From positions 26,948 to 90,947 of the forward strand of contig JAGAJO010000007.1 of the NCBI GenBank assembly GCA_017626015.1: a stretch of 64,000 nucleotides of DNA, written 5' to 3'. Origin of the DNA: Ruminococcus sp. (GTDB taxonomy: Bacteria; Bacillota; Clostridia; Oscillospirales; Ruminococcaceae). Numbering within the stretch: position 1 is the first letter of the stretch; each line of letters begins with the position of its first letter. A program made the translations under genes and the position numbers. Positions 61,667 through 64,000 of the stretch are shown here, one piece after another. The notes below the pieces were generated by a model. That model was given only the letters and a program-made list of their open reading frames with translations. It searched no databases and had not been told where the DNA came from.

Positions 61667-61816
61667 CAATTTTCACAAAAAAAATTTTCAAAATGTTCTG
61701 AGATTAACAGATCCGGCAAAAAAACAGCATAAACGCCGCACAGTAACCAAAACCGCTCCGGCTGCATAGGATAAGCAGGTGGGAGAAAAGTAAAAAAATT
61801 TTAAGGAGTGGATATT

Positions 61817-62062
61817 TTGGATAAAGTTGACAGCACAATGCTGAGCAGGATCTTTGCGGACAACAGCTGCGGAGACGACGCAGAGTGTCCCATGCCCTCG
61901 TCGGTATTTCCCGCAAGCACGCCTCCTGCAATGGCTTACGTTCCCTTTCAGCAGTGGGAGACACCGTATGAAGCCGAGGTAGGGCTCAGCAGGGGTACGG
62001 TGTTCCCGTCACTAGACAAACCCTTTATCGGAGAGGAGGCTGTAAAAAAATGCCCTTACTGA
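61817..62062 (+). CDS. cotJA: Spore coat-associated protein CotJA
   Basis: About 81 aa. The C-terminal half MAYVPFQQWETPYEAEVGLS followed by RGTVFPSLDKPF is the CotJA signature. The N-terminal 40 residues are acidic and Pro/Ser-rich. Start: TTG at 61817, 9 nt after AAGGAG; a GTG at 61808 shares bases with the SD and is unlikely. It overlaps cotJB by 13 nt. In known spore formers the CotJ proteins are made in the mother cell. Confidence 0.9.
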   Translation: MDKVDSTMLSRIFADNSCGDDAECPMPSSVFPASTPPAMAYVPFQQWETPYEAEVGLSRGTVFPSLDKPFIGEEAVKKCPY

Positions 62063-62337
62063 ATGACAGGCAGAAGCTTATGCGAAAGCTTATGGCGTGC
62101 AAATTCGCACTGGTAGAGGCAAATCTCTATCTTGACAGCCACCCGACCTGTAAAATGGGTCTGGCATATTTTGAAAAGCACAAGGCGGAATACGAAAAGG
62201 TCGAAGCCGAATACGTGGAAAAATACGGTCCGATCACCGCAGTACAGTCAAATAACGATAAAAAATGGGAATGGGTAAAAACGCCGTTCCCTTGGGAAAG
62301 ATCAATTAAATTTTCACAATTTTACATTGTTACTTAA
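62050..62337 (+). CDS. cotJB: Spore coat protein CotJB
   Basis: 95 aa. Matches CotJB: KLMACKFALVEANLYLDSHP, EAEYVEKYGPITAV, KKWEWVKTPFPWE. Family members usually stop shortly after the PWPWE-like motif; here an extra tail of about ten residues (SIKFSQFYIVT) follows. GGAGG precedes the ATG. cotJC (manganese catalase-like), normally next, is missing; prophage-type genes on the opposite strand follow instead. Confidence 0.9.
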   Translation: MPLLNDRQKLMRKLMACKFALVEANLYLDSHPTCKMGLAYFEKHKAEYEKVEAEYVEKYGPITAVQSNNDKKWEWVKTPFPWERSIKFSQFYIVT

Positions 62338-62412
62338 AACAGCGAAAACACGGCATTTACAAGCTATTTACGCCCTTATAGTTACAATGAATAAAACCCA
62401 AAAAATGTGATT

Positions 62413-62432
62413 AACGTGTACATAACGTGTAC
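62413..62432 (+). repeat. Direct repeat near the prophage edge
   Basis: AACGTGTAC occurs twice (62413-62421 and 62424-62432), one helical turn apart, in AT-rich DNA between cotJB and the phage genes. It could be an integrase arm site or part of an att region. Confidence 0.35.
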
Positions 62433-62445
62433 GCAACCCCTAAAT

Positions 62446-62703
62446 CTACCCCGAACTATACCGTCCGTACTTCTCCAACTGATCCATCATATCGTCCGAA
62501 GAAGTTGGGTGATAATCGTCGTAAAGCTTCTTTTTAAGTATAATGTTCATATCCGTGGTTTTCAGCTTGCTGTCGTAGACTATGCACGTTGTCTGATGTA
62601 TGCGGCTCTGCTCGTGGCACAGGCACAGAATTGTCACCAGATCGTTATCTTCGCCGACCTTGTAGCCGCCTTTTTCCTTCGGCAAAAACACACTGTATCT
62701 CAT
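62446..62703 (-). CDS. Hypothetical protein at the prophage edge
   Basis: About 85 aa, opening MRYSVFLPKEKGGYKVGEDN, with a Cys/His cluster (LCLCHEQSRIHQTTC) that might bind metal. I do not recognise it. The ATG at 62703 has GGAG 7 nt upstream; an ATG seven codons earlier has none. It lies after the endolysin terminator, a common place for phage accessory genes. Confidence 0.5.
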   Translation of the reverse strand: MRYSVFLPKEKGGYKVGEDNDLVTILCLCHEQSRIHQTTCIVYDSKLKTTDMNIILKKKLYDDYHPTSSDDMMDQLEKYGRYSSG

Positions 62704-62775
62704 TGCTTCGACTCCATTTGACATGATTCATGTATTCATTTTACCATAACTGGAGCGATATGTCAATGAAATTCT

Positions 62776-62812
62776 GCAAAAATCCAGCCGCCCCGGACCC
62801 CCCGGGACGGCT
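62776..62812 (-). terminator. Intrinsic terminator after the endolysin gene
   Basis: Minus strand: AGCCGTCCCGG / CCGGGGCGGCT stem (one wobble pair) followed by GGATTTTTG. Confidence 0.8.
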
Positions 62813-62822
62813 ATAATCATAC

Positions 62823-63587
62823 CTAAACCCTCTTAGTAAACCCCGTCAGACATATCCACCCAGCGCCGGATTTCAGCTTGCCCCAGGTCTGACCTGCAAC
62901 GACCTTTTCGGCGGTTATGGTGTAGATATACCCATACTTTGCCGTAACTCCCCTGACAAGCGCACAGCCCACTCCTGCGCCCTTTCTGACGTTCATTCCG
63001 CCCTTGTACGTGATCTTTACTTTGTAGGGTTTGAACGCCTTGGACGGCTTTGCTGTAGAGCTGACGGCAGGCTTACAGTCAGCGTTCAGACGCTTGTTGA
63101 CCTCGTCGGCTATGTACTTGAACTTGCTCTCCAGATACGGACCCGGACAAGCTGTCGGAGCAAAATACTTGTGCATTGTCAGGTTGCCGCTTGCGTCTCC
63201 TGTGAAATTAAGCTTTTTAATGCCGTTGCGTCTACAGATGTCCTCGCAAAGGTCGATAAGCTTTGCAAGAGCCTTGTCGCTGACGTGCCATTTGTCCTTA
63301 TCGGAGGGCTTGTCGTTGGCGACCTCAATAGTGATTGCCCTGTGGTCGTTTGAGGGACTGGAGCTGCACCACGAACGGTTGCATTCCTCGACGAAAAGAC
63401 CCACTTTGCCATCGCTGGCGATAGCGTAGTTGGACGATCCTCCTCTTGATGTTACTGCATTGTAGCAGCCGTCAAGGGTCAGATTTCCTGCCATGTGGTG
63501 GATAGTGATCTTGTCGATCTTGTGATTTCTCGGCTTGTTGCAGTTGGGACTAAGCCTTGTGTAGGATGCCAGTTTGCTGTTACTCAT
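62823..63587 (-). CDS. Phage-type endolysin: N-acetylmuramoyl-L-alanine amidase with SH3 domain
   Basis: 254 aa. An Amidase_2/PGRP zinc domain (about 1-165) contains ITIHHMAGNL (His ligand) and MHKYFAPTACPGPYLESKF (His, Cys ligands). A Ser/Ala/Lys linker and a C-terminal SH3-like wall-binding domain (about 195-254; GGMNVRKGAG, WGKLKSGAGWICLTGF) follow. There is no signal peptide, as expected for release through a holin. It is the third gene of the lysis cassette, 2 nt after the XhlA-like gene. Confidence 0.92.
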   Translation of the reverse strand: MSNSKLASYTRLSPNCNKPRNHKIDKITIHHMAGNLTLDGCYNAVTSRGGSSNYAIASDGKVGLFVEECNRSWCSSSPSNDHRAITIEVANDKPSDKDKWHVSDKALAKLIDLCEDICRRNGIKKLNFTGDASGNLTMHKYFAPTACPGPYLESKFKYIADEVNKRLNADCKPAVSSTAKPSKAFKPYKVKITYKGGMNVRKGAGVGCALVRGVTAKYGYIYTITAEKVVAGQTWGKLKSGAGWICLTGFTKRV

Positions 63588-63589
63588 AA

Positions 63590-63817
63590 TTATTCCTTCC
63601 TTTCCAGATCGTCAATACGGTGATTCGCTACCTTGATTTTTTCCTCCAGAAGCTTGCCGTCCTCCTCGAGCTTGTATGTACGCTCCACTATCTGATTGTG
63701 CTTTTCCACTTTTTTCTCCAGCTGCTCTATGCGGTAGCTCATCAGCTTTATGCCGGAAAACGTTCCGAAAAACGTGCCTGCAAGGGACAGCAGAGCTACA
63801 ATGATCTCGCTTGACAT
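63590..63817 (-). CDS. XhlA-like phage membrane/coiled-coil protein
   Basis: 75 aa. An N-terminal membrane segment (about residues 3-24) is followed by a charged heptad-type helix (YRIEQLEKKVEKHNQIVERT). XhlA-type proteins act with holins in phage and prophage lysis. Here the membrane part comes first, the reverse of classic XhlA, so the match is by type only. Start ATG at 63817 overlaps the preceding stop (TGATG); SD GGAGGTGAGG. Confidence 0.7.
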   Translation of the reverse strand: MSSEIIVALLSLAGTFFGTFSGIKLMSYRIEQLEKKVEKHNQIVERTYKLEEDGKLLEEKIKVANHRIDDLERKE

Positions 63818-64000
63818 CAGTCCTCACCTCCGGAGCCTGACTGCGGAGATTCGCCCCTGTTTTTCTGATACTGCGTGCCGAAATAGAAGCTTATCACAAC
63901 GGTGAAAACCGTCAGAAACTGCTCTGCGGAGACCGTCCCCCGGACTGCCAGAACGCAGAAAACCGCCGTCAGCAGCAGCGTGACTATGGACTTTACGTCG
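63817..64000 (-). CDS. Putative phage holin, C-terminal part; runs off the window
   Basis: The last 60 residues are visible: a membrane segment (SIVTLLLTAVFCVLAVRG), a second one (FLTVFTVVISFYFGTQY), then a short polar tail. The N-terminus lies beyond base 64000. Small size, membrane segments and place before XhlA-like and amidase genes suggest a holin. Confidence 0.65.
   Translation of the reverse strand, partial: DVKSIVTLLLTAVFCVLAVRGTVSAEQFLTVFTVVISFYFGTQYQKNRGESPQSGSGGED

Follow-up and report, generated by a model that had tools for sequence, protein, structure and literature searches.

What has become of cotJC in this Ruminococcus genome, and would the departure of a prophage bring it back? 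The window, the whole stretch of 64,000 nucleotides that was analysed, is C7:26948-90947 of genome G000 (2.42 Mb in 28 contigs), and contig C7 stops where the window stops. Close to that end the sequence-only reading had seen complete cotJA and cotJB genes followed, in place of cotJC, by a minus-strand lysis cassette about 100 nt past cotJB. It suspected that a prophage had used the 3' end of cotJB as its att site, altering the CotJB tail and splitting the operon, and that excision might restore it. Both genes are indeed complete (Table 1), and minus-strand phage genes do stand where cotJC, a sporulation gene, was expected. The tail is as odd as it had seemed: the 95-aa CotJB ends in ERSIKFSQFYIVT, whereas the protein stops 1-3 residues past PFPWER in 25 of 25 genus relatives. 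In 24 of these relatives cotJC begins within the cotJB stop codon, 1 nt in, and in one it begins 5 nt behind it; in G000 the minus-strand gene set starts 108 nt past the stop. The endolysin and XhlA-like members of the supposed cassette are borne out, but the holin lacks confirmation by name, since the family of the short ORF in that position has no assigned function. The 92-aa ORF has no match in Pfam or PHROGs.

Table 1. Coordinates of the cotJ genes, the cotJC pieces and the prophage features in genome G000 (window positions unless a contig is given)
Feature	Position	Strand	Match or remark
cotJA, complete	61808..62062	+	PF11007, 68.1 bits
cotJB, 95 aa, phage-derived tail	62050..62337	+	PF12652, 97.8 bits; tail unlike 25/25 genus relatives
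attL core TTCCCTTGGGAAAGA of prophage 1, 15 bp	62287..62301	+	longest stretch shared exactly by the two junctions
92-aa ORF at prophage end	62446..62724	-	near-copies on C15 and C27
Amidase_2 endolysin	62823..63587	-	PF01510 and phrog_7698
XhlA-like protein	63590..63817	-	PF10779 below Pfam cut-off; phrog_1863
Short ORF in holin position, runs off contig end	63817..64000	-	phrog_13256, function unknown
cotJC 5' piece	C22:25916-26011		profile 1-32, first 31 codons, right after far att site
cotJC 3' piece	C22:83381-83839		profile 30-196, other 167 codons

The 3' end of cotJB is occupied by a temperate prophage with a tyrosine integrase, here prophage 1. A second, exact copy of its core, TTCCCTTGGGAAAGA, lies outside the window at C22:25890-25904 in direct repeat, with the integrase gene (L015:4694-5815) before it and directly behind it GGTGAAAGCTGATGTGG, which comprises the native end of CotJB and the start of cotJC. 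Such an exact repeat of the 15-bp core, beside the integrase at the far end of the prophage, shows that the odd tail is not a matter of chance. The native tail found there reads ERGES followed by a stop, and joining at the core in silico gives an 87-aa CotJB; the att site and its effect on the tail and the operon were thus correctly foreseen. In C22:1-25.9 kb lie genes for a phage repressor, replication, a terminase, the portal and the head; with the lysis genes of the window, head, packaging, replication and lysis functions are all represented. The tail region is missing from the assembly between the start of C22 and the end of C7. The last 141 bp of C7 are the reverse complement of C11:1-141, as expected of a collapsed repeat. 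At E <= 1e-40 the integrase has no match in the other 28 genus genomes (one of 29 in total), and it has no confirmed relative among the viral contigs. Prophage 1 may be an ordinary prophage without a developmental role.

The 92-aa ORF has near-copies elsewhere in G000, at C15:48325-48674 and C27:16810-17110 (93% and 81% DNA identity), one of which lies at the end of a prophage on C15. This second prophage (C14 end and C15; L276, L267 and L012) has an integrase 61% identical to that of prophage 1 and occupies an ordinary site, a tRNA-Ser (cga), with the 92-aa ORF at its other end. An ORF similar by eye lies by the last cotJC piece of G014 (L106:14064-14270).

The far end of prophage 1 holds the integrase, the core copy, the native tail and the start of cotJC that had been predicted, but only the first 31 codons of cotJC. 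A profile search for the CotJC family in G000 gave two partial matches on the same contig and strand, about 57 kb apart, which rules out that cotJC is absent or has moved intact. Prophage 1 does not fill the whole gap in the operon either, since C22:26-83 kb looks like core genome. The 5' piece leads into CAGCTTGG-AGGA-CCTCGCTGCAAAAGGATAT and the 3' piece begins from ATATCCATTGGAAGTCAGG-AGGT-CCGGACGG. Both junctions have a GGAGG core and half-att arms, and the outer arms are, by eye, near inverted repeats, a typical feature of the attP sites of serine integrases. A gene for a large serine recombinase of 476 aa, with Resolvase and Recombinase domains, ends just before the 3' piece; the best solved match of the protein is YokA of SPbeta. 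Codons 30-31 of cotJC, two glycine codons with the core GGNGG, serve this recombinase, which is of phage type, as its attachment site. Because cotJC itself is broken at this second site, excision of prophage 1 alone would not restore the operon, and that part of the earlier proposal is not supported.

Joining the G000 pieces at the short att core gives a CotJC of 198 aa, in frame and without gaps, that is identical to the uninterrupted protein of G016 at 180 of 198 positions. The interrupted gene, the recombinase at the end of the interval and the in-frame rejoining at a short core are features of a skin-like element. When joining was tried in 13 genomes, 11 yielded a joined protein: gapless at 198 aa in G000, G003 and G233, and of 200-247 aa with gaps in the other eight.

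The cotJ operon of G000 is interrupted twice, and on the analysis as a whole it is moderately probable that cotJC harbours skin-type intervening elements excised in sporulation. If cotJC behaves like sigK with skin or spsM with SPbeta, the serine recombinase would join attL to attR in the sporulating mother cell, the interval would leave as a circle and the 198-aa cotJC would be rebuilt, whilst the spore would retain the split copy. A continuous operon in G000 would require prophage 1 to leave as well. On this view the recombinase would be active, at this time and in this cell type, and the 57-kb interval of G000 may still be excisable.

That interval consists mostly of core genes, and a phage-like remnant marks one of its ends, whereas in many other genomes the interval is a prophage or a small element. 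MtaB, PurL and Cmk match above the NCBIfam cut-offs, FtsK-like, PBP1A-like, UppP-like and HPr-like proteins below them, and PurA and IspH were read by eye. The right end looks like a phage remnant, since the 78-aa ORF before the recombinase has counterparts in a viral contig (44%) and in the prophage of G061 (43%), and a partial one in G014. On the same contig a repeat of about 180 bp (L017:11494-11674), with dozens of matches in G003, could aid rearrangements.

It is possible, if somewhat doubtful, that cotJC in G000 is dead, a rearrangement having placed core DNA between the att sites and left the pieces as leftovers. The core genes within the 57 kb would suit this, as would the surroundings of HPr, which lies about 130 bp from the cotJC-site attL in G000, while in G003, G014 and G016 its neighbour is a membrane protein of 252-257 aa; the different neighbours indicate a breakpoint at that attL. 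The interval genes are scattered in relatives, which also rules out that they normally stand as a block behind cotJC, and in the single-contig genome G179 the cotJC pieces lie 675 kb apart. In G000, however, both pieces and the recombinase keep open, in-frame coding sequences, each junction has its half-att arm and the orientation permits excision. A similar arrangement is moreover found in the Anaeromassilibacillus isolate An172 (G095), where YebC, Gmk, PriA, Fmt, RsmB, RlmN, RsgA and AckA in the third interval, and FeoB in the second, match above cut-offs.

A bolder possibility is that, once the att sites were in place, core DNA came to lie between the pieces (57 kb with PurL, MtaB and Cmk in G000, about 20-23 kb with Gmk, PriA, Fmt and others in An172), and that the mother cell excises this stretch of its own core genome and so assembles cotJC from two to four pieces. 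Such a loss would be tolerable because the mother cell dies; on balance this stronger version seems unlikely.

A split cotJC is not peculiar to G000. Among the 29 genomes of the genus, cotJC is uninterrupted in 23, split in four (G000, G001, G003 and G014, with only the 3' piece found in G001) and without a match in two. Relatives of the recombinase at 59% identity or more occur in exactly the four genomes with a split gene; other matches in the genus at E <= 1e-30 reach 39% or less. In G000 and G001 the recombinase adjoins the 3' piece; in G003 and G014 it lies on the opposite strand and adjoins the 5' piece. Near residue 65 the G014 gene is broken a second time, next to another serine recombinase.

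A wider scan of named genomes, which used the recombinase alignment and not cotJC, gave at least 71 loci. Among the matches listed, 57 loci reach 40% identity, and in 52 of these a cotJC piece lies no more than 350 nt from the recombinase 3' end (the 3' piece in 29, the 5' piece in 23); none of the 14 loci below 40% has one. The five exceptions are three loci at a contig end (L126, L138 and L166) and two with matches of 40-58 residues (L189 and L190). All 40 genomes reached through such loci, stemming from 40 of the 57, hold at least one cotJC piece, with a single piece found in five (G062, G063, G065, G073 and G078). In an even draw of the order at a completeness of at least 80%, the recombinase was found at E <= 1e-80 in 36 of 394 genomes and 27 of 168 genera. 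A piece starting or ending at the first site (about profile positions 16-50) is present in 34 of the 35 recombinase-positive genomes besides G000. G434 has one piece (profile 23-140) with the recombinase at its far end, and among the 35 no partner piece was found in G052, G194, G205 and G452. Of 20 same-family genomes taken from the 358 recombinase-negative ones, ten have an uninterrupted cotJC, four have none and six are split or partial (G179, G225, G235, G265, G283 and G323), four of these at the second or third site and one at the first.

The breaks fall near residues 31, 65 and 134, the last at about profile position 150, and four collinear pieces occur in G095 and G291. The G000 break belongs to a class that recurs in the order, in which cotJC serves as attB for phages, phage remnants and minimal recombinase elements. 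The intervals range from elements of about 2.3 kb to prophages (37.5 kb in G061; also G383) and stretches of core genes; in G383, a single contig of 4.0 Mb, there are three pieces and a different terminase in each interval. The second interval of G291 (C1:213000-228000; L307-L310) holds, by eye, Cas-like ORFs and a translated CRISPR array.

Forms of the element that have not been inserted are also found. Three viral contigs (L241, L242 and L243) and the circular phage record PQ006094.1 carry the recombinase without cotJC, with a symmetric site centred on GGNGG or CCNCC behind it. Which of the two cotJC pieces, 5' or 3', the recombinase ends next to may depend on the direction of this centre. 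A cotJC piece is present in three of 16 viral loci (L244, L252 and L253). The viral contig L249 (IMGVR_UViG_3300010275_000205) carries the first 167 aa of a recombinase, cut off by the end of the contig, which share 89% identity with the G000 protein.

The many intervals that are prophages with head, tail or lysis genes raise the question of whether cotJC is merely a convenient attB, from which phages depart in the ordinary way, with no tie to sporulation and with CotJC dispensable. The pieces could then be intact through recent insertion or through the phages' need of working att sites. An additional cotJC-like gene without interruption does occur in some split genomes (G059, G163, G213, G383, G068, G074, G090, G096 and G098 at the least), and the sporulation timing of excision is presumptive. 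Three observations speak against this explanation, which we consider rather unlikely. The first is the persistence of an open recombinase in minimal elements of about 2.3 kb (G085 and G098) that have no phage structural genes and carry an Amidase_6 gene (L157:9196-9681 and L172:9202-9684), a small divergent ORF and the recombinase. The second is that 42 of 45 neighbouring same-contig pairs have the order and orientation that excision needs; this hand count omits G237 and G451, five draw genomes being repeats of earlier ones with identical coordinates. The exceptions are G252 (L299/L300), inverted over 108 kb, and G446 (L301) and G179 (L297/L298), in reversed order, and in these three the rebuilding of cotJC would take more than simple excision. 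The third is the parallel in the literature with sigK, spsM, spoVFB, gerE and yabG.

The small divergent ORF belongs to a family found just before the recombinase in seven loci, six of which built its profile (L157, L172, L140, L144, L145, L167 and L171, both 2.3-kb elements included). It is a candidate excision factor; the 78-aa ORF before the G000 recombinase differs from it.

Patterns of substitution bear on whether cotJC is kept functional while split. When the 3' pieces from G000, G001 and G003 are compared with the other genomes, pN/pS is 0.05-0.17, similar to pairs of uninterrupted cotJC, which have a median of 0.137 (5-95% range 0.03-0.18; 322 pairs of 26 sequences, which are 23 genes with three entered twice). 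Values are 0.02-0.38 for the recombinase (13 pairs) and 0.04-0.43 for the 3' piece (seven pairs), the top value coming from a nearly identical pair. Between G085 and G098 the recombinase, which is open, gives 0.32 and the 3' piece 0.08. These sequence comparisons support selection on cotJC while split but do not prove it, since synonymous sites are near saturation and the insertions are undated. A sigma-E-like pattern occurs before none of 52 recombinase genes (0.4 in shuffles) and misses cotJA too, and alignments upstream of cotJA and of the recombinase gave no promoter evidence.

That the 57-kb spacing in G000 is an assembly artefact, as its 28 contigs and the prophage repeats collapsed at contig ends might suggest, is very improbable, since the split recurs in many genomes, the single-contig G233 and G383 included, and core genes lie between the pieces in the isolate An172 too.

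Published reports (PMC5595907, PMC4191935, PMC10747680, PMC11222575) name sigK, spsM, spoVFB, spoVR, gerE and yabG as sporulation genes that are split. In Bacillus subtilis, as described there, SPbeta is excised from spsM in the mother cell and the gene is rebuilt (PMC4191935). The cotJC intervals resemble SPbeta in that a serine recombinase prophage lies within a sporulation gene, and YokA is the best solved match here. However, the gene and site are different, there are up to three sites, the intervals may hold core genes, and excision, observed for SPbeta, is predicted for cotJC. Likewise skin in sigK of B. subtilis and Clostridioides difficile, as there described, is a recombinase element in a mother-cell sporulation gene with in-frame halves, whereas cotJC is a coat catalase-like gene, not one for a sigma factor, and its excision would remain a prediction. 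The account of gin in gerE of Bacillus cereus ATCC10987, with three recombinase genes and the helper GirX (PMC5595907), indicates that an interrupting element may be excised even when it lacks phage genes, and the 2.3-kb cotJC elements might be such a case, although their small ORF is no more than a candidate helper. In C. difficile R20291 the prophage phi027 adjoins a CotJC-like gene, and the sections concerned do not state that the gene is split (PMC11222575). Both there and in G000 a prophage adjoins cotJC or a related gene, but in G000 cotJC is split, and the reported phi027 attP differs. No report of a split cotJC was found in a search of the open-access literature.

The larger finding concerns cotJC itself: phage-type recombinases have targeted it repeatedly, in G000 it is cut in two, and skin-type reconstitution is the likely means by which it would be restored. 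cotJC would join the few sporulation genes known to be split. It is a single coat gene struck at three places in an order whose members are mostly gut bacteria, and in such genomes it will appear missing or truncated. The 2.3-kb elements would provide small test systems for the coupling of excision to sporulation; an element of about this size is present in the cultured isolate Caproicibacter fermentans EA1. The core-gene intervals, if they are really excised, would mean that a terminal cell deletes essential chromosomal DNA in a programmed way.
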